Shown here: in pieces, positions 27,720-37,758 of the stretch
Position numbering within the stretch: position 1 is the first letter of the stretch
How the letters are laid out: the number at the start of each line of letters is the position of its first letter
Assembly: GCF_039645975.1 (NCBI RefSeq)
Contig: NZ_CP147918.1
Span: forward strand, 1,302,001-1,366,000
Source: Sulfurimonas sp. HSL-1716
Lineage (GTDB): Bacteria > Campylobacterota > Campylobacteria > Campylobacterales > Sulfurimonadaceae
Length of the DNA stretch: 64,000 bases
Reading direction: 5' to 3'
Position numbers and translations under genes: made by a program
Notes under the pieces: generated by a model
Seen by the model: only the letters and a program-made list of their open reading frames with translations
Databases searched by the model: none
What the model was told of the DNA's origin: nothing

Positions 27720-29498
27720 TTAGACACTGCACTGCGTGTCTATCTTATAGACGCCCAGCTCTTTGCCCTTCGTATCGAGCACATGCACCGCACAGGCGAT
27801 ACACGGGTCGAAGCTGTGGATGGTGCGGATGATCTCCAAAGGCTGCTGCGGGTCGGCCACTTTCGTGCCGATGAGGCTTGCCTCGTACGCACCCATCCTT
27901 CCTTTATAATCACGCGGTCCGGCGTTCCAGGTAGAAGGGACCACGGCCTGATAGTTGGCGACCTTGCCGTCTGCTATTTTTACCCAGTGTCCCAAAGCAC
28001 CGCGGGGCGCTTCTGCAAGTCCCATACCTTTGGTCTTTACGCTCACTTTATCAAAGTCAAACTCCGTCCAGGTGCGAAGATCGCCCGCTGCTGCGTTTGC
28101 GGCGAGTTCATCCGCCCACTCGACGAGCATATCGGCCATCAGCTCCGTCTCCACGGCGCGCGCCGCGGTTCTTCCTACGGTACTAAAGAGCACGGAGACC
28201 GGAAGGTTTCCGCGTTTTAAGAAGTTCATCACGTATTTGGTGATCCTCTCGTCTTTTCTTGCCACTCCCACGATCATACGCGCAAGCGGTCCCACTTCTA
28301 CGCGGGTATCGTTGTAGATAGGAGATTTTATCCAGCTGTATTTCTCATTCGTCTTCAGGTAGGCGATACCGTCTGAGCGTTTGTCAAGACCTGTATATTT
28401 AGGAATGGTCTGACCGTCGTAAGGGTGTAGAGGTTTGCTTCCCTCATACCAGGCATGCGTGACGTCCTCTGCGATCTTTTGAGGGTCCACATCCTGTACT
28501 TTGGAGATATCGCCGCCGTACACTATGCCGCTGGGAAAAAGCAGAGCGGATTTATAAAAGCCGGTATCGTCCAGACGAAAATCCCCGTAGCTCATATAGT
28601 TAAGCAGACCGCCTCCCGTTCCGCCTACGCCTTTGCCCTCCATCAGCTCGCTGAAGGTGGCTTTTGAATCGGTCGCCTCATCGGCGTACATCGTCCCCGC
28701 CATGTAAACATCGGGAAGGTATGCCTCTTTTACGAATCTCGTACCGTCTGAGAGCAGCTGTTTGAACAGGGCTATACGCGCAGGGTTCTCGATATCCTGC
28801 ACACAGGTCACACCGCCCACCACGATGGACTGTGGATGCGGGTTCTTTCCGCCGAATATCGCCTGCATCTTCGCCAGGTCGCGCTGAATATCCAGCGCCT
28901 TTAGGTAGTGCGCCACGCCTATGAGGTTCTGTTCGGGGGTCAGTTTATAGTGTTTGTTGCCCCAGTACCCGTTGCCAAATATTCCAAGGCGTCCCTGTTT
29001 TACGAACTTGGCGACACGGTCCTGGATCTCCTTGAACTCGCCTTGACCGTCGGTATACGGGTTCACGCCCGCGACACCTGCCCACTTTCTGGCTTCTGCG
29101 GCGGTTTTTGCGGGATCTGCCGAGAGTGCGGAGACCACATCCACGAAATCAAGTGCATGCAGATGGTAGAAGTGTACGAGATGGTCATGGACATAGAGCG
29201 ATCCCTGAATCAGGTTGCGCACGATACGCGCGTTTTTAGGGATGGTGATATCAAATGCATCTTCGACGGCCTCGATGGATCTCTGGTAATGCGTACCCGT
29301 ACACACGCCGCAGATACGCATAGCCAAGAGTCCGCAGTCGCGCGGATCGCGCCCCTGCAGGATGGTCTCTATCCCGCGGAACATCGTCGATGCGCTGTAT
29401 GCGTCTACTATGGTGTTGTTCTCGTCTATGACCGCCTCGATCCTCAGATGCCCCTCTATACGTGTTATAGGATCCACTACGATATGTTTCTTGCTCAT
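27720..29498 (-). CDS. hydB: Membrane-bound NiFe uptake hydrogenase large subunit
   Basis: Catalytic subunit of a group 1 hydrogenase, 592 residues. Metal motifs RICGVCTGTH (C63, C66, H70) and DPCIACAVH (C566, C569, H572) are intact. A 20-residue C-terminal tail after H572 awaits proteolytic removal. It has no signal peptide of its own; it is exported with HydA through Tat. The start overlaps the hydA stop by one base (TAATG). H2 oxidised here feeds quinones via HydC. The protein resembles Wolinella/Helicobacter HydB in layout. Confidence 0.97.
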   Translation of the reverse strand: MSKKHIVVDPITRIEGHLRIEAVIDENNTIVDAYSASTMFRGIETILQGRDPRDCGLLAMRICGVCTGTHYQRSIEAVEDAFDITIPKNARIVRNLIQGSLYVHDHLVHFYHLHALDFVDVVSALSADPAKTAAEARKWAGVAGVNPYTDGQGEFKEIQDRVAKFVKQGRLGIFGNGYWGNKHYKLTPEQNLIGVAHYLKALDIQRDLAKMQAIFGGKNPHPQSIVVGGVTCVQDIENPARIALFKQLLSDGTRFVKEAYLPDVYMAGTMYADEATDSKATFSELMEGKGVGGTGGGLLNYMSYGDFRLDDTGFYKSALLFPSGIVYGGDISKVQDVDPQKIAEDVTHAWYEGSKPLHPYDGQTIPKYTGLDKRSDGIAYLKTNEKYSWIKSPIYNDTRVEVGPLARMIVGVARKDERITKYVMNFLKRGNLPVSVLFSTVGRTAARAVETELMADMLVEWADELAANAAAGDLRTWTEFDFDKVSVKTKGMGLAEAPRGALGHWVKIADGKVANYQAVVPSTWNAGPRDYKGRMGAYEASLIGTKVADPQQPLEIIRTIHSFDPCIACAVHVLDTKGKELGVYKIDTQCSV

Positions 29499-30733
29499 TA
29501 TTCTGCTCCTCCGTCTTCTTTTTTACCGCCGATTGCACTGGCGATCGCATGAATACCTATACCTATACCCGCTGCGGTGAGCAGTCCCAGACCGAACTCA
29601 TCGACGCTTTTCTCGACTCCGCCCGCCGGCGCTTTTATCTTCGCGTTTGCCATCGGGCGTTCATATGCGTATTTATCCCAGAAATCGGGTTCCGAACAGC
29701 CGATACATCCGCGTCCGACCCCGATCGGCCAGTTCACCGCTTCGTTATAGCGTATGATGGAGCAGTTGTTAAACGTCATCGGGCCTTTACATCCCATCTT
29801 GTACAGACAAAAATTGTTCTTCGCTCCCTCGTCGCCCCACTCTTCCACATACTCTCCCGCATCGAAGTGCGCGCGTCTTTCGCAGTTGTCATGGATACGG
29901 TATCCAAAGGCGAATTTCGGACGCAGCAGGGAATCGAGTTCGGGAAGCTGTCCCGTGAGGATATAGTGGATAACGACCCCTACCATGTTGGCCGGGTTTG
30001 CCGGACAGGCGGGGATGTTAATGAGGGGTTTGCCTTTTACGACGTCCATGACGCCCACGGCCTGTGTCGGGTTGGGAGCAGCCGCGGGAATACCGCCGAA
30101 TGTCGCGCACGCGCCTACTGCCACGACTGCCGCAGCATCTTTGGAGACACGCATCAGGTGATCGTAAAAGGTCTCCGCGCCTGCACCTATGGTGCCGTAC
30201 TGGCCGTTCATCCCCATAGGCACCGAGCCTTCTACAAAGAGCAGGTATTTGCCTTTAAAGGTCTTGATCGCGTCTTCGAGCTGTTTTTCCGCCTGAAAGC
30301 CCGCTGCGGCCTGAAGCGTTTCATGGAACTCCAAAGAGATGATATCCAAGACGATCTCGTCAATCTTGGGCCCGTCAGAACGCAAAAGCGCTTCGGAGTT
30401 GCCCGCGCAGTCTTGGAGTTCCAGCCAGATGACCGGAGCGCGGTTCATAAGCTCCGCGGCTTCGGCCACTAAAGGGGAGAACATCGGAGGAAGCATAAGC
30501 ATCGCCGTCGTCGCGCTCACCCATTTCATAAAATCGCGTCTGTCGACGCCGTTGTTACTTAACACTTCGCTGAAATCCAGCCGGTCGTTTGCAGGCTGTG
30601 ATACGCGCAGTTCCCGTAATCGTGTCTGACACCTCTCAAACAGATCGTTGTAATAAGACTCACCTTTGTTCGTCTCGACTCGAGCGCTCCTTGAGGTAAA
30701 CAACTTCTTCACCCCTTCGATTCTATCCGGCAT
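29498..30733 (-). CDS. hydA: Membrane-bound NiFe uptake hydrogenase small subunit
   Basis: Electron-transfer subunit, 411 residues, with a long Tat leader (twin arginines R65-R66 in DRRDFMKW, hydrophobic region to about residue 93) and a C-terminal membrane anchor (about 380-400). Distal cluster ligands are seen in HDNC and FCLYKMGC; medial-cluster ligands in FNNC and GCIGC. The proximal cluster motif is unusual: DCAGNSE (C109, N112) where most group 1 enzymes have CxxC. The other proximal cysteines (GACATFGG, PACPANP) are present. Strong AAGGAG before the ATG. First gene of hydABC. Confidence 0.96.
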   Translation of the reverse strand: MPDRIEGVKKLFTSRSARVETNKGESYYNDLFERCQTRLRELRVSQPANDRLDFSEVLSNNGVDRRDFMKWVSATTAMLMLPPMFSPLVAEAAELMNRAPVIWLELQDCAGNSEALLRSDGPKIDEIVLDIISLEFHETLQAAAGFQAEKQLEDAIKTFKGKYLLFVEGSVPMGMNGQYGTIGAGAETFYDHLMRVSKDAAAVVAVGACATFGGIPAAAPNPTQAVGVMDVVKGKPLINIPACPANPANMVGVVIHYILTGQLPELDSLLRPKFAFGYRIHDNCERRAHFDAGEYVEEWGDEGAKNNFCLYKMGCKGPMTFNNCSIIRYNEAVNWPIGVGRGCIGCSEPDFWDKYAYERPMANAKIKAPAGGVEKSVDEFGLGLLTAAGIGIGIHAIASAIGGKKEDGGAE

Positions 30734-30855: not shown

Positions 30856-31464
30856 TCAATGCTCTTTTGTAGAAGATTTTTCTACCCAAAGTTCTTTTTC
30901 TTTTGCCGGTACCCAGACTCTGTCTATAAAATAGCCCGTTATTTTTATCCAATCACCTTTTTTTATATAGGAGGTAAAACTTGTATCTTTACTCCATATC
31001 TCGATCTTTTTTCCTTCGGGACCGTCATATATGTAACTATCTTCTTTGAGCCTGAAAGAGCTTGCTTCAAAATATGTTACGTTGTTGTCTTTTTTATCGT
31101 ATTCATCTTTCATAATCAGCTTGGGCAGAGTGTTGTCGGGAGTCTGCATACTCTTTATTTTCGCTTTTAGGCTTTTGATATCTTTATCTTTGAGCTTCAA
31201 AAGTTTTTTGCTCTCTTCTACACTCTTTTTCAGATCTTCTATCTCTTTTACATACGGTTCTTTATTTCTGGAGTTCAGCTCCTCCATAGAACTTATTTCC
31301 GTTTTTAAGACACTGTTCTTCTCTTTAACGTCAGTCAGTTCTTTCATGCAGGTTTCATAATTGACTCTCAATTTCGAAATATCGTTTACGATATCGTCAA
31401 TTCTGTCTATCTCATCGGCATTTAGAGACAATACTATTAAAAATATCAGCGTTAAGATCTTCAT
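30856..31464 (-). CDS. Exported coiled-coil protein with SH3-like C-terminus
   Basis: 202 residues; signal peptide (about 1-16), a long heptad-rich coiled coil (about 20-110), then a C-terminal domain of about 70 residues with SH3-like pattern (RLKEDSYIYDGPEGKKIEIW ... KKGDWIKITGYF). Such SH3-like domains often bind cell wall. The start overlaps the trmA stop by one base (TAATG), so it is the last gene of the run beginning at motA. No family name is recognised; a role at the cell envelope or wall is inferred from architecture. Confidence 0.75.
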   Translation of the reverse strand: MKILTLIFLIVLSLNADEIDRIDDIVNDISKLRVNYETCMKELTDVKEKNSVLKTEISSMEELNSRNKEPYVKEIEDLKKSVEESKKLLKLKDKDIKSLKAKIKSMQTPDNTLPKLIMKDEYDKKDNNVTYFEASSFRLKEDSYIYDGPEGKKIEIWSKDTSFTSYIKKGDWIKITGYFIDRVWVPAKEKELWVEKSSTKEH

Positions 31465-32576
31465 TATCGACCCCTTTTTATAAGTTTAACACCCATCTCC
31501 AGGTGGTGTGTATACGGAAACTGATCGAACACGGCCATCTTTTGCACCTCATGCGTTTTTGAGAGATACTTCAAGTCCCTATACAGAGTTTCCGGATTGC
31601 AGGAGATATACAAGATGTTCTCATGTCTTGCGGCAAATTCACAAGATGCTTCATCCATGCCCGCACGCGGAGGATCGACGAAAATAGTCTTAAGTGCATA
31701 AGAGCTTATATCTACTTCACCCATACGGCGGAACTCTCTGACTCCGTCAAGAGCTTGAACAAACTCTTCAGAGCTCATCCTGACAAACTCTATATTGGAG
31801 ACGTCGTTTAAAAGCATATTGTTTTTCGCAGCTGCAATGGATGATTTTGATATCTCCGTTGCAAGAACTTTATCGAATTTCGAAGAAAACGGGATAGTGA
31901 AGTTTCCGGCGCCGCAGTAAAGCTCCAGCAAATCACCACTAAGACCTTCGAACTGGTTTAGCGCCCAAGATATCATCTGCTCGTTCACTCTTGGATTTGG
32001 CTGAGTGAAACTGTTTTCTATCTGCATGAACTTATAATCGATATCCTGTACATGAAGTGTCTCGGTTATGTGATCTTTTCCTATGGTCACTTTTTGCTTT
32101 CTGCTTCTTCCGATTATGGATATGCCAAGCTCTTGAGACAGCTCTTTTGCTTTTTCTTCCCACTCCCCGTCCAGTTTTCTGTGATACAAGAGAGAGACCG
32201 CTATTTCGCCTCTCAAAGAGGAAAGAAAGTCTGCACCAAAAAGCTTTTTATCCATCTTCTTCTCTTTTATGGATTGTAGCAGTTTTGGCATAAGGTCCAT
32301 GATATACACGTTTACCTGCGGACACTCCTCGATGATGACTACGCCTTTGTGCTCAAGTGCGTTCATAGCATAATGTATCTCATCGCCTATATGCCAGATC
32401 TTGAACTCTGCTCTTGCCCTGTATCCGCTTTGGGGTGACCGGCATATATCCATGTCACCTTTATAAAGATCTGCAAAACGTTTCTTGTTCGACTCCACTT
32501 TATTTAGAAGCTGTGTCTCGTATCCGCCTTCATAATCACGGCAGCTTCCGCATTCGCCAAAATATTTACAATTCAA
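31464..32576 (-). CDS. trmA: tRNA (uracil-5-)-methyltransferase TrmA
   Basis: Methylates U54 of tRNA to ribothymidine with S-adenosylmethionine. 370 residues; colinear with E. coli TrmA (SGYRARAEFKIWH; QIENSFTQPN; DLLELYCGAGNF SAM motif; VDPPRAGMD; catalytic Cys in YISCNPETL; terminal FDQFPYTHHLE). The N-terminus adds CKYFGECGSC, a Cys-x5-Cys-x2-Cys pattern like the 4Fe-4S motif of RlmD/RumA and not found in E. coli TrmA. TTG start. Lies 9 bases after the GGDEF/EAL gene and overlaps the next gene by one base. Confidence 0.93.
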   Translation of the reverse strand: MNCKYFGECGSCRDYEGGYETQLLNKVESNKKRFADLYKGDMDICRSPQSGYRARAEFKIWHIGDEIHYAMNALEHKGVVIIEECPQVNVYIMDLMPKLLQSIKEKKMDKKLFGADFLSSLRGEIAVSLLYHRKLDGEWEEKAKELSQELGISIIGRSRKQKVTIGKDHITETLHVQDIDYKFMQIENSFTQPNPRVNEQMISWALNQFEGLSGDLLELYCGAGNFTIPFSSKFDKVLATEISKSSIAAAKNNMLLNDVSNIEFVRMSSEEFVQALDGVREFRRMGEVDISSYALKTIFVDPPRAGMDEASCEFAARHENILYISCNPETLYRDLKYLSKTHEVQKMAVFDQFPYTHHLEMGVKLIKRGR

Positions 32577-32585
32577 AAAAATCCC

Positions 32586-34583
32586 TTAATTATTTGTTTT
32601 TAAAACCAACTCTTCAAATTCTCTGATCGGCAGCGGTCTTGAGCAATAGTACCCCTGATAGACATTGCACTCCACCTCTTTTAAGAACTCCAACTGCTCT
32701 TTTGTCTCTACGCCTTCGGCTATCAGTTTTATCCCCAGAGAATGTCCCATCTTTATTATCGTATCTATATAGACTTTACCCGATTTGGAACTGTAGTCAT
32801 CTATAAAGCTCTTATCTATCTTTATAACGTCAAAAGAGAATTTTTTGAGATATGACAAAGATGAATAGCCCGTACCAAAGTCATCCAAGGATATGGTAAA
32901 ACCCAGACTGTGAAAAAGGTTGACTATCTCAAAAGCCTCCTTTACACTGTTTATGAATACGGATTCTGTAAGTTCGATCTCCAAGTTGTTCGAATCTGCA
33001 CCGCTGTTTTCATATATGGTTTTAAATCTTTGCATGAACTTTTCATTTGCGATCTGTTTGGCCGAAACATTGACGGACAAAAGCATCTCTTTAAACATAT
33101 CGCTCATCGACCATCTTTTTTGCTGCTCGAAAGCCGTCTTGAATATCCATTCTCCAAGCTCGACGATAAACCCGCTGTTTTCTGCGATGGGAATAAACTC
33201 GTTTGGAGAGATCAAACCGTTTTTTGGAGAGTTCCATCTGATGAGCGCTTCTGCTCCGATGATCTTTGAAGTCGCAATATCGACTTTTGGCTGATAATAG
33301 AGTTCGAACTCCTCGTTTTTAAGAGCTTCGCGCATCCTATTGTTCGTCTCTATCTCGTTTATAATCTTTTTGTTCAGCTCCTGAGTAAAGAAGTTGAATC
33401 TTGCCCTTCCTTTGTTCTTGGCTTCAAACAAAGCGATATCCGAGTTTTTCAACAGGCTCTCTATATCCATACCGTCTTTTGGATAAAAAGCGACACCCAT
33501 ACTTGCCGATATATTAACCTTATGATTGTTTACCGTCCACTCCGAACTTATGATATCCAGCACGTTTTGTAAAATATTTGTCAGGTCCATAAGCGATTTG
33601 TATTCGCTGATGACAAGCACAAACTCATCTCCACCTATTCTGGCTACGATATCATTTATTTTCACTGTAGCGGGAAGTTTTTTGGAAACGTCGACAAGCA
33701 GATTATCGCCTATCGTATGTCCCAAAAGATCGTTGACGTCTTTAAAATGATCGATATCCATAAACACGAAAGCAAACTCTTTTTTGTCCCTGTCGGATTT
33801 GGCAATAAGCCTGGTCAGTCGCTCTTCAAGATGGTTTCTGTTTGAAAGACCGCTCAACTCGTCTGTGATCGAGGACATATAAAGCTTCTCTTTTTCTATC
33901 TCCAAACGGGTAAAGGTTTGAAGCATGGAGGAGCGTATATACTCCAACTCTTTTATCATGAACATGGGAGGTATGGCAGAATTATAATACGCATACTGGC
34001 GAAGCTTCTCAAGAGGAAAGATCACATATTTATCGATCACTTTCCATAAAAACAGATAGATAAATACGAAGATCAGCCCATAGATGATCAAAAAGTTCGT
34101 CTTCAGATCTAAAAAGTTCTGTTTTATCAGATCATGATTCAAGATCAAAAGAAGATTTAACTTTATGGGTTTGTCCTGCTCATAAATATAGATATCTGTT
34201 TGAAACCCTTTCTTGTTCAACAAATCATAAAACGAGATATGTTTCAGATCGCTTGAAATCCGATCTTTTTTAGGAAGTTTTACATCGCCTACCTTGCTGC
34301 TTAAGATCGGTGTTTGATTTTTCAAGACCAAGAAGTCGTCTACGATCTCGTTGGATGCGACCCTGCGGTCTATCATAGGCTCCAAAACGGAGATATTTTT
34401 CGTACTGTCTAAAACTTTTGAAGCGTAATAACCGACTTCCAGAAGATTTTTTTGTATATCGCCTGCTATGAGATCGACCATCTTTTCTCTTTGAGAAACG
34501 TACATAAAAACAGATAATGACGTAAATACAACTATGATGATCGCATATAAGATCAGATTGAACTCTTTTATTGAGAGTTTCAT
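32586..34583 (-). CDS. Membrane GGDEF/EAL protein with periplasmic sensor region
   Basis: 665 residues. TM1 at about 10-28, a periplasmic loop of about 130 residues, TM2 at about 165-185, then cytoplasmic GGDEF (ARIGGDEF intact) and EAL (GAEALIRW, ELTES, LDDFGTGYSS intact). It may make or degrade c-di-GMP. Its ATG overlaps the stop of the upstream periplasmic binding protein by 4 bases, so the binding protein is a likely partner that reports a ligand to the periplasmic loop (inference, by analogy to NspS-MbaA). Member of the run that includes motA, motB and fliP. Confidence 0.92.
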   Translation of the reverse strand: MKLSIKEFNLILYAIIIVVFTSLSVFMYVSQREKMVDLIAGDIQKNLLEVGYYASKVLDSTKNISVLEPMIDRRVASNEIVDDFLVLKNQTPILSSKVGDVKLPKKDRISSDLKHISFYDLLNKKGFQTDIYIYEQDKPIKLNLLLILNHDLIKQNFLDLKTNFLIIYGLIFVFIYLFLWKVIDKYVIFPLEKLRQYAYYNSAIPPMFMIKELEYIRSSMLQTFTRLEIEKEKLYMSSITDELSGLSNRNHLEERLTRLIAKSDRDKKEFAFVFMDIDHFKDVNDLLGHTIGDNLLVDVSKKLPATVKINDIVARIGGDEFVLVISEYKSLMDLTNILQNVLDIISSEWTVNNHKVNISASMGVAFYPKDGMDIESLLKNSDIALFEAKNKGRARFNFFTQELNKKIINEIETNNRMREALKNEEFELYYQPKVDIATSKIIGAEALIRWNSPKNGLISPNEFIPIAENSGFIVELGEWIFKTAFEQQKRWSMSDMFKEMLLSVNVSAKQIANEKFMQRFKTIYENSGADSNNLEIELTESVFINSVKEAFEIVNLFHSLGFTISLDDFGTGYSSLSYLKKFSFDVIKIDKSFIDDYSSKSGKVYIDTIIKMGHSLGIKLIAEGVETKEQLEFLKEVECNVYQGYYCSRPLPIREFEELVLKTNN

Positions 34584-35461
34584 CTTATGATATCCGCCGT
34601 TGAAAATCGTATGGAATCAAGTTTTTTTTCTAACTCTTTAGAGAGATTTTTATTTATCCATTCAATTTGGTTCAAAGAAACGATGAACTCATCGTAGGTA
34701 TACCCTTTTAAGTAGGGTTTAACTACCCGGTAATACTCTTTTGGGTTTTTTTGGACAACCGTTACTGCATCGTCTATAATCTTTTTCAGTGCTAAAAACT
34801 GTTTTTTATGAGCACCGAATATCTCTTTATCGGCATATAAAGCGTCTATTACGACCAGAGTCAATCCGTTTTTCGTACAAGCCACTTCATGAAAACCGTT
34901 TTTTTTCAATTTGGCGTCATATGGGCTGTAAGTGACAAGAAGCACCGTTTTAGACGAGAATTTTTTGCTTTGTAGAGTCTCTATGACCGCCTGATCCTTG
35001 TTTATATAGTTTATCCTGCTTTTATCGATCTTATATTTTTCTATAAAGTATTTGAGTAAAAGATTGTTTACGGAGTTCATCTCAAGATATGCATCTATCT
35101 TTTCGTTTGAATTTTGCATCTCTTTAATGCTTTTGTTGCTAAATATCATATCACCTCCGAACGATCTGTCCAGAAGTATGATCGGCATAAGGGTTTTGTC
35201 CTTGTTTTTCATCAACGAGTACTCATATTGCGTTCCCGTAAACGCATCAGATCTCCCGACATCGTACAAACCCATATTTTCACCCAGAGAGACGACATTG
35301 ACAAGTTTTATATCCAGCTTGTCGAGCCACCCTTTCTCTTTTGCATAATAAAGCGGCGAATATCCTATCCACTCATTGCACGATATGATGAGAGTATCTT
35401 TTTTAGCCGGTCCGCAGCCGATAAAAAGAAGAGAGATAAAAATGATAAGCAGCGATCTCAT
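34580..35461 (-). CDS. Periplasmic substrate-binding lipoprotein paired with a c-di-GMP enzyme
   Basis: 293 residues; lipoprotein signal with lipobox cysteine in LLFIGC (about residue 16), then a type 2 periplasmic binding fold of the NMT1/THI5/SsuA-like group (LIISCNEWIGYSPLYYAKEKGW; GRSDAFTGTQYEYSLM). No ABC permease or ATPase is adjacent. Instead its last 4 bases overlap the membrane GGDEF/EAL gene. This suggests a sensory rather than transport role. Ligand unknown: relatives bind sulfonates, nitrate or thiamine precursors, but binding residues cannot be assigned here. Confidence 0.82.
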   Translation of the reverse strand: MRSLLIIFISLLFIGCGPAKKDTLIISCNEWIGYSPLYYAKEKGWLDKLDIKLVNVVSLGENMGLYDVGRSDAFTGTQYEYSLMKNKDKTLMPIILLDRSFGGDMIFSNKSIKEMQNSNEKIDAYLEMNSVNNLLLKYFIEKYKIDKSRINYINKDQAVIETLQSKKFSSKTVLLVTYSPYDAKLKKNGFHEVACTKNGLTLVVIDALYADKEIFGAHKKQFLALKKIIDDAVTVVQKNPKEYYRVVKPYLKGYTYDEFIVSLNQIEWINKNLSKELEKKLDSIRFSTADIIR

Positions 35462-35483
35462 AAAACTCTTTCCCCCTCCCTCT

Positions 35484-36218
35484 CTATTTTATGCTGGCGA
35501 TTAGATTTCCGATAAGAAGATTCCAGCCGTCAATAAGGACAAAGACGAGTATTTTAAACGGCAGCGATATCATAACCGGCGGAAGCATCATCATACCCAT
35601 CGACATAAGGATGGAAGCGACAACCATGTCTATGATCAAAAACGGCAGGAATATCAAAAAGCCGATCTCAAAAGCGGTTTTGAGTTCACTGATGATAAAC
35701 CCGGGAATGACAACCGAAAGCGGCACTTCTTCAATGCTCTTTGGGTTTTGCAGATGGCGGATACGGACAAAAAGAGCAAGATCTTTCTCTCTTGTATTTC
35801 TGATCATAAAGTTTTTAAAAGGCTGAGCCGTCTTGGTAAACGCTTCTTCATATCCTATCTTTTTTTCCAAATAGGGTTTTATGCCTGCGTCATAAGCTTT
35901 TTGTCCTACCGGTTCCATGACAAATATAGTAAGGATGAGTGCGAGCATCACCATCAACTGTGTCGGCGGAACCTGCTGTGTGCCGAGCGCCTGACGCAAA
36001 AAACCGAAAACTATGACGAACCTCGTAAACGTCGTCATAACAAGAACGATGCTCGGAGCCAGGAACAAAAGCGTCAAAGCCACTAAGACGTTGAGCGAAC
36101 TTACCAGCTGCTGAGGAGTGTCCGGAGCGGACAATGAAAAATTGACAGTAGGAATAACTGCATTTGCCGCAAATACGGAAGACGCCAGAAAAAATAGGAT
36201 CAGTATAGCTCTTATCAT
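35484..36218 (-). CDS. fliP: Flagellar export apparatus protein FliP
   Basis: Core membrane protein of the flagellar type III export gate, 244 residues. Signal-like N-terminus, then the conserved stretch TLLFLAPSIVLVMTTFTRFV, GTQQVPPTQ and the C-terminal helices (FKILVFVLIDGWNLLIGNL) as in the family. Starts 4 bases inside the motB 3' end. The co-location of fliP with the stator genes rather than with fliQR is worth noting. Strong family match. Confidence 0.95.
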   Translation of the reverse strand: MIRAILILFFLASSVFAANAVIPTVNFSLSAPDTPQQLVSSLNVLVALTLLFLAPSIVLVMTTFTRFVIVFGFLRQALGTQQVPPTQLMVMLALILTIFVMEPVGQKAYDAGIKPYLEKKIGYEEAFTKTAQPFKNFMIRNTREKDLALFVRIRHLQNPKSIEEVPLSVVIPGFIISELKTAFEIGFLIFLPFLIIDMVVASILMSMGMMMLPPVMISLPFKILVFVLIDGWNLLIGNLIASIK

Positions 36219-36994
36219 TTAGATACGGCTGCCTTGTCCAATATATTTTTTTTGATGCTATCGCTTTTGGCCGTTTTTTTACCGTAGAAACTGATCTCGA
36301 CACGCCTATTTTGCTCGCGTCCTTCTGCTGTCGCATTGGTGGCCATCGGGCTATATTCCGCATATCCCGCGGCATTGATCCTGTTTGGTTTGACCCCGTC
36401 ATCGATAAGCTCTTTAAGTACGGAAATAGCACGCGCAGACGAGAGTTCCCAGTTGTCCTTATACGGCGAATTTTTTCCCGGAGCCGTGTTGTCGGTATAC
36501 CCTTTTACCGTAATATCCATTTCATTAGGCAGTTCTTCTATGATCAAAGCTATACGTTTTAAAAAAAGCAGTGCGTCTTCATTCTCTATCTTCGCGCTGC
36601 CGATTTTAAAAAGAAGCGACGAAGGAAGATTTATGACAAACCCCTCTTCTGCCTCTTCGACGGAGATCGTCGGACCATGACCTTTTTGCATCATTTCGTT
36701 TGCGTCTATGATAGCCTGGCTTACCCTGTTTACCGTTTGGCTCGATTCGTTTTGCTTTTCAATAGGAGTCGATTCTTGAATACGCATCTTTGATATCTCG
36801 GTTTTTGTACCGCCTTCAAGGACACTCATCGCACCCGAAAGAGAACCGATGGCTTCAGACACCTTTTTCGCATCCATGCTCGACATGGAGAGCAGAAGAA
36901 CAAAGAAACAAAGCAAAAGACTCATCAAGTCCCCAAATGCAGCCAGCCACTCCGGCATACATTCAGGACAGTCGGGACATTTTTCTTTAGCCAT
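36215..36994 (-). CDS. motB: Flagellar stator protein MotB (PomB-like)
   Basis: 259 residues. One transmembrane helix at about 18-40 with the ion-binding Asp (D22 in AFGDLMSLLLCFFVLLLS); an OmpA-like peptidoglycan-binding domain at about 120-245 (TDNTAPG; ELSSARAISVL; NRRVEI). The Cys/Pro-rich N-terminus (CPDCPECMPEW) and the LMSLLLCFFVLLLS helix resemble Vibrio PomB, suggesting sodium coupling, but this is inference. Overlaps motA by one base and fliP by 4. Confidence 0.93.
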   Translation of the reverse strand: MAKEKCPDCPECMPEWLAAFGDLMSLLLCFFVLLLSMSSMDAKKVSEAIGSLSGAMSVLEGGTKTEISKMRIQESTPIEKQNESSQTVNRVSQAIIDANEMMQKGHGPTISVEEAEEGFVINLPSSLLFKIGSAKIENEDALLFLKRIALIIEELPNEMDITVKGYTDNTAPGKNSPYKDNWELSSARAISVLKELIDDGVKPNRINAAGYAEYSPMATNATAEGREQNRRVEISFYGKKTAKSDSIKKNILDKAAVSK

Positions 36995-37758
36995 TAGTCA
37001 AACTGGCTTTCACGATTTGCAGGAGGAAGATAGCTAAGCAGTTTTCCTTCCAGTGTTCTTGGATTATCGCCGGCCTGAATCGACATGATTCCCTCAACGA
37101 TCATCTGCATCACAAGCATCTCGTCATCATTGCGGATATTTAATATATTGGCGACAGGATTTCCGAAGATATTACCGATCATCGCGCCGTACATGGTCGT
37201 AAGCAAAGCGACCGCCATCGAAGGACCGATCGCCGAAGGATCCGCCATATTCAAAAGCATCGCGACCAAACCGATCAGTGTACCGATCATCCCCATCGCA
37301 CCGGCAAGCCCGGACCAGTTGCTAAAGATCGCGGAATTGCTTTTATGACGGCTGCTTGTCTGCTCCATCTCTATTTCCAGAAGATCACGGATAGTATCGG
37401 GTTCATTTCCGTCTACCGCCATTGAAAGCCCTTTTTTCAAAAATTCGTTCTCTTCGTTATTCGCGGCTGTTTCAAGGGCCAAGATACCGTCTCTACGGGC
37501 TTGGGTGGCATAATCGACAAGTTTTTTTATGAGTTCGGGGACATCTTGCTGCGGAGGTTTGACGGCGATCATAAATATCTTGACGAAGTTCTTCATCTGC
37601 TCCATTTTAAATGAGACCAGAAGAGCTCCTACCGAACCGCCTATAACGATTAAGACTGAGGGTATATCGATATAAGCACCTATACCGACACCCATCGCCA
37701 TAGCACCAAAAAGAAGTGCCAAGACCAAGACTAAACCTATGACCGTACCTAAATCCAT
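36994..37758 (-). CDS. motA: Flagellar stator protein MotA (PomA-like)
   Basis: 254 residues, four membrane helices, with a cytoplasmic loop (about 80-145). The C-terminal half has the conserved GLAGAMGMIGTLIGLVAML and IGPSMAVALLTTMYG segments containing the family prolines. The short cytoplasmic loop and DLGTVIGLVL start recall PomA-type stators. ATG preceded by AAGGTGAG. It is the first gene of a seven-gene minus-strand run extending to 30856. Promoter in the 196-base divergent gap is not certain (TATCAT candidates only). Confidence 0.95.
   Translation of the reverse strand: MDLGTVIGLVLVLALLFGAMAMGVGIGAYIDIPSVLIVIGGSVGALLVSFKMEQMKNFVKIFMIAVKPPQQDVPELIKKLVDYATQARRDGILALETAANNEENEFLKKGLSMAVDGNEPDTIRDLLEIEMEQTSSRHKSNSAIFSNWSGLAGAMGMIGTLIGLVAMLLNMADPSAIGPSMAVALLTTMYGAMIGNIFGNPVANILNIRNDDEMLVMQMIVEGIMSIQAGDNPRTLEGKLLSYLPPANRESQFD

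Follow-up and report, generated by a model that had tools for sequence, protein, structure and literature searches.

A conserved gene pair of an NMT1-type binding lipoprotein and a GGDEF-EAL membrane protein as a probable two-protein periplasmic sensor

In the stretch of Sulfurimonas sp. HSL-1716 DNA analysed here (64,000 nucleotides, hereafter the window), the gene of a periplasmic binding lipoprotein overlaps that of a membrane GGDEF/EAL protein. We consider it highly probable that the two form a conserved two-protein periplasmic sensor, most likely one that works like NspS-MbaA with another binding-protein family and a PAS/Cache-like receptor domain. An NspS-MbaA-like working is favored because the coupling of the two genes is conserved, no transporter accompanies them, the outputs vary and the binding proteins group in a clade of their own, distinct from their transporter-linked relatives. 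The source genome is complete, on a single contig of 2.26 Mb, and the features of the pair in the window are as follows.

34580-35461, minus strand: binding-protein gene for a 293-aa lipoprotein with NMT1/SsuA-type fold (ORF, weak NMT1 match, structure model)
32586-34583, minus strand: membrane sensor gene, 665 aa, with GGDEF and EAL domains (ORF, Pfam, alignment of 30 homologues)
34580-34583, minus strand: overlap of the two genes, ATGA, 4 bases (sequence)
35417-35461, minus strand: predicted lipoprotein signal peptide, residues 1-15, MRSLLIIFISLLFIG-C (sequence)
35150-35170, minus strand: putative cleft motif DRSFGGD, residues 98-104, of the form DxSxGxD (family alignment)
34104-34490, minus strand: predicted periplasmic receptor domain, PAS/Cache-like, about residues 32-160 (model and structure comparison)
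33402-33869, minus strand: GGDEF domain with intact active-site motif (Pfam, 145.5 bits)
32634-33341, minus strand: EAL domain with intact catalytic motifs (Pfam, 255.1 bits)

The 4-base overlap that the preliminary description had reported is present as described, with both ORFs on the minus strand. The pair lies in a tight minus-strand run (30856-37758) of motA, motB, fliP, the binding-protein gene, the GGDEF/EAL gene, a trmA-type methyltransferase gene and a gene for a small coiled-coil protein, and may therefore be co-transcribed with flagellar genes in the source organism. Elsewhere in the window, two ORFs at 27720-30733 read, by eye only, as the large and small subunits of a [NiFe] hydrogenase.

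Of the 151 genomes of the bacterial family, 64 contain a match to the binding protein when distant matches are counted as well. A sample of 397 genomes from across the phylum gave 39 with a match at E ≤ 1e-15, and these include six further families of the order; three gammaproteobacterial records also carry a homologue. A downstream membrane signalling gene adjoins the homologous binding-protein gene in 77 of the 78 loci with context (among the 80 close-family loci inspected, the two genes abut at 76, and also at L153 if another start is taken; two loci end at a contig edge, and at L158 the genes do not abut). The spacing is -4, i.e. a 4-base overlap, in 55 of the 76 loci measured. The pairing of binding protein and signalling gene is not due to chance.

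The signalling partner itself is swapped within the family. Class A comprises two-TM GGDEF-EAL proteins like the one in the window; in class B the output consists of GAF, a degenerate GGDEF and EAL, and the binding protein carries an N-terminal membrane anchor instead of a lipobox. Further outputs are PAS-GGDEF proteins and large hybrid histidine kinases with a Cache-like domain, and the more distant binding proteins are partnered by other GGDEF-EAL proteins or by HAMP kinases. The tree places the close binding proteins in one clade (100/100) that is separated from transporter-linked relatives by a long branch, and inside which the proteins of hybrid kinases form one subgroup and those of class B another. 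A reverse search with a profile of the receptor domain returned mostly sensors adjoining a binding protein, the exceptions being an orphan (L167), an amtB-linked lineage and a sensor whose partner is a Peripla_BP_4 protein. The existence of receptor-fold sensors without a binding protein, namely L167 and the amtB-linked lineage, is a point against the two-protein sensor.

Some individual arrangements were observed in the course of this comparison. The amtB-linked sensors, L168-L174, match the receptor-domain profile, come from the same family of bacteria, have no binding protein and lie beside ammonium transporter genes (amtB). At L175:2672-6002 the Peripla_BP_4 binding protein overlaps a PAS-GGDEF sensor, giving the same layout with another binding-protein family, and at L143:3969-7377 a transposase-like ORF interrupts the sensor gene, leaving the binding-protein gene intact.

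The assignment of the binding protein to the NMT1 type is weak by sequence and clear by fold. Its NMT1 match (E 7.7e-4, 19.9 bits) stays below the Pfam cut-off of 20.5 bits, and at E ≤ 1 an NMT1 match is obtained for 43 of the 66 homologues in the alignment; searches of solved structures by sequence gave nothing informative with the single protein and only weak NMT1-type matches with a profile. The AlphaFold2 model (pLDDT 94.4) has the SsuA/TauA/ThiY-type fold of the NMT1/THI5-like superfamily, its nearest solved structures being SsuA, TauA, CmpA, PqqT, ThiY and Thi5 (Z about 20-24 over about 260 residues). The lipobox reads FIGC, with the lipid-attachment residue Cys16 directly after the signal peptide, and a lipobox-like start is common to most class A homologues. 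The tether is short and, since the +2 residue is not Asp, an outer-membrane location is possible; both points count against the two-protein sensor.

For the sensor, the preliminary description of a two-TM GGDEF/EAL protein with a 130-residue periplasmic loop was borne out by two hydrophobic segments, at about residues 1-32 and 157-189, that enclose a loop of about 130 residues, and by good GGDEF and EAL domains. No Pfam family matched the receptor domain. Its model (pLDDT 89.6) resembles the extracellular domain of WalK (Z 9.3, rmsd 3.1 over 123 residues) and a CdgS9/LapD-type output domain (Z 8.1), which suggests a PAS/Cache-like domain, Z values of 8-10 pointing to a fold class and not to a family. 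Across 30 class A sensors, the window included, the GG[DE]EF motif is found in 29 and the EAL and DDFGTGY motifs in all 30; the I-site RxxD of the window GGDEF domain is not intact (KIND). With both active-site motifs intact, the sensor would by its motifs rank among the bifunctional GGDEF-EAL enzymes.

Evolutionary distances of 29 class A pairs showed a partial correlation of 0.45 between binding protein and receptor domain (Mantel p 0.001), as compared to 0.31 for EAL, 0.14 for the linker and 0.09 for GGDEF. The binding protein thus appears to diverge along with the receptor domain to a degree that the catalytic domains do not account for, which is supportive of an interaction but not proof of it, because co-inherited neighbours correlate anyway.

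In the mechanism that we propose, the membrane-anchored binding protein would close on a small extracellular ligand and, in its liganded state, would dock on the sensor at its PAS/Cache-like periplasmic domain. TM2 and a conserved helical linker would then transmit the signal, which would shift the balance between c-di-GMP synthesis by GGDEF and breakdown by EAL. The sensor presumably acts as a dimer, and the response could have either sign.

An importer-type fold would also suit a binding protein that serves a distant ABC transporter, its place beside a c-di-GMP gene being incidental or a matter of co-regulation only. No permease or ATPase gene adjoins the binding-protein gene, and the complete genome encodes only five PF00528 permeases, which the gene surroundings identify as ModB, PstC, PstA and two of the Dpp/Opp type; a permease of the kind that an NMT1 binding protein would serve is absent from the single contig. 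The protein is thus an orphan, as had been claimed at the outset, and on this genome-wide survey we reject the distant transporter, the very finding that the preliminary description had named as speaking against its proposal; given also that the coupling of the genes persists across genera and families, we regard it as very improbable. Each remaining NMT1 match in the genome is part of a protein that has a kinase or GGDEF/EAL domain as well. Three of these matches are good NMT1 domains, whereas the fourth is more aptly called a phosphonate-type binding domain. It thus seems that this organism employs NMT1-type proteins for sensing alone. Another reading is that the protein has lost small-molecule binding and persists as a structural co-receptor, the cue of the sensor being mechanical, redox or a protein partner as for WalK-type domains. 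The long branch between the family and the transporters and the WalK-like receptor domain are in its favor. Against it, the putative cleft residues are among the most conserved positions although overall identity falls to about 33%, and retained ligand binding is therefore favored. No substitution occurs at eleven residues (W31, G33, P36, T77, D98, S100, D104, E127, Y178, P180 and D206) in any of the 57 close homologues, and at position 80 all 57 have an acidic residue. These residues sit at strand ends of the model, and we infer that they line the ligand cleft of such folds. We judge the loss of binding unlikely.

A third alternative keeps the two-protein sensor and assigns it a sulfonate, a pyrimidine or another classic NMT1 ligand, as the preliminary description had guessed; SsuA and TauA are indeed closest in overall fold. 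The DxSxGxD motif is absent from both E. coli proteins, which score 13-19 bits on the family profile, whereas binding proteins of guanidine and guanylurea importers reach about 86-142 bits and share the acidic motif, so that this guess is not supported. Moreover, the positions with the same residue in at least 90% of the family include five acidic ones (E80, D98, D104, E127 and D206) and no basic one. We regard a classic ligand as slightly less probable even than a lost binding site. Of the 66 aligned family members 62 have the motif, as do all 12 of the binding proteins encoded directly behind guanidine-I riboswitches within this bacterial family. It is missing from all of 29 further NMT1 proteins from the phylum; most of these are fused sensors, so that few transporter proteins serve as control. 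Among importer proteins, the profile scored a plasmid protein beside an annotated agmatinase at 168 bits and one beside an isochorismatase-type hydrolase on the plasmid of a metformin strain at 142 bits; the corresponding hydrolase of Pseudomonas mendocina MET was shown to act on guanylurea (PMC9800807). An importer protein behind a guanidine-I riboswitch, with guanidine-carboxylase genes, scored 118 bits and other guanidine importers about 86-119 bits. Further relatives at 122-138 bits are H4, found with a dimethylformamidase-like gene, and H5, H9 and H40 in unclear operons.

Because these importer relatives score high on the family profile and share the cleft motif, our best lead for the ligand is a small guanidino-type or similar nitrogen-rich cation. 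This assignment is tentative. It is not proven, as the importer relatives are distant and neither a guanidine-I riboswitch nor an SMR exporter nor an arginase-family gene was found in the source genome. The guanidine importer proteins also differ at three of the invariant positions, with Tyr for W31, Trp for Y178 and a non-acidic residue for E127, and the long branch leaves room for a change of specificity. At most a mild tendency was seen for the binding protein to occur in genomes with guanidine-I riboswitches (12 of 22 such genomes as compared to roughly a third of the rest), and the surroundings of class A pairs differ by genus and offered no conserved metabolic neighbour as a clue. In a single genome (L096:6104-13101) a guanidine-I riboswitch, together with an importer operon of the guanidine type, lies one gene downstream of a class B pair. 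A broader proposal, which we advance with somewhat greater reserve, is that the family could be a dedicated set of periplasmic sensors whose ligand is guanidine or a guanidino compound akin to it (guanylurea, methylguanidine, agmatine) and which control c-di-GMP and, via swapped partners, histidine kinases. If true, this would tie guanidine biology to lifestyle decisions, beyond export and nitrogen use alone.

Among known systems, NspS-MbaA offers the closest layout. There, nspS lies directly upstream of mbaA and overlaps it, and liganded NspS acts on the MbaA periplasmic domain to set c-di-GMP (PMC8079147, PMC9993111). The systems of Vibrio cholerae and Sinorhizobium meliloti share with the window pair the overlapping upstream binding-protein gene, the two-TM sensor with periplasmic domain, GGDEF and EAL, and the lack of a transporter in the operon. 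However, NspS is a PotD-type polyamine protein and the window protein is of the NMT1 type, MbaA carries SGDEF and EVL in place of GGDEF and EAL, and the window family, unlike NspS-MbaA, also feeds kinases and degenerate enzymes. The pair is thus NspS-MbaA-like in layout and not a member of that system, because its binding protein falls outside the PotD family. The analogy with NspS-MbaA through another binding-protein family, drawn in the preliminary description, is strongly supported by the conserved coupling, the lack of a transporter, the swapped outputs and the co-divergence with the receptor domain.

The guanidine-I-riboswitch ABC importer has a binding protein (annotated as 'putative urea ABC transporter substrate-binding protein') that belongs to the same superfamily and has DxSxGxD and equivalents of T77, P180 and D206, but it comes with permease and ATPase partners and a guanidine riboswitch and is separated by the long branch; with no adjoining permease or ATPase and no such riboswitch in the genome, the window protein is not a member of this group and has only the motif in common. 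Fusions of NMT1 domains with histidine kinases or GGDEF domains, as in the three good ones of the source genome, likewise use the broad fold for sensing, but they are covalent, involve no separate binding protein and do not have the acidic cleft motif.

That binding proteins act on receptor domains is already known as a principle, since a 2022 survey found at least 13 binding-protein families that bind receptor domains (PMC9602780). We found no paper that links NMT1 and GGDEF with periplasmic binding proteins, nor one that links solute-binding proteins and GGDEF with Campylobacterota, and neither NMT1 nor guanidin- occurs in the text of a review of c-di-GMP sensory input (PMC8846402). As far as the literature examined shows, the binding-protein family, the swapped outputs and the ligand lead are new. 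Very few systems are known experimentally in which binding proteins drive c-di-GMP control, and to these the family would add a system that uses a different binding-protein fold, is spread across Campylobacterota and has a single catcher re-wired to several outputs. Since the cleft is conserved and has a counterpart in importers whose context is known, the list of ligands is short, and what feeds an entire class of c-di-GMP enzymes becomes directly testable.

A related arrangement occurs in Ilyobacter polytropus, on plasmid pILYOP01 (L225:3760-6392), where an NMT1-type protein (150 bits) directly precedes a signalling-type gene, again with no permease. It differs from the window pair in that an HD-domain phosphohydrolase replaces the GGDEF-EAL protein, a c-di-GMP-I riboswitch lies upstream, the motif is not conserved and the host belongs to the Fusobacteriota; it is possibly an independent pairing of a binding protein with c-di-GMP signalling, with feedback.
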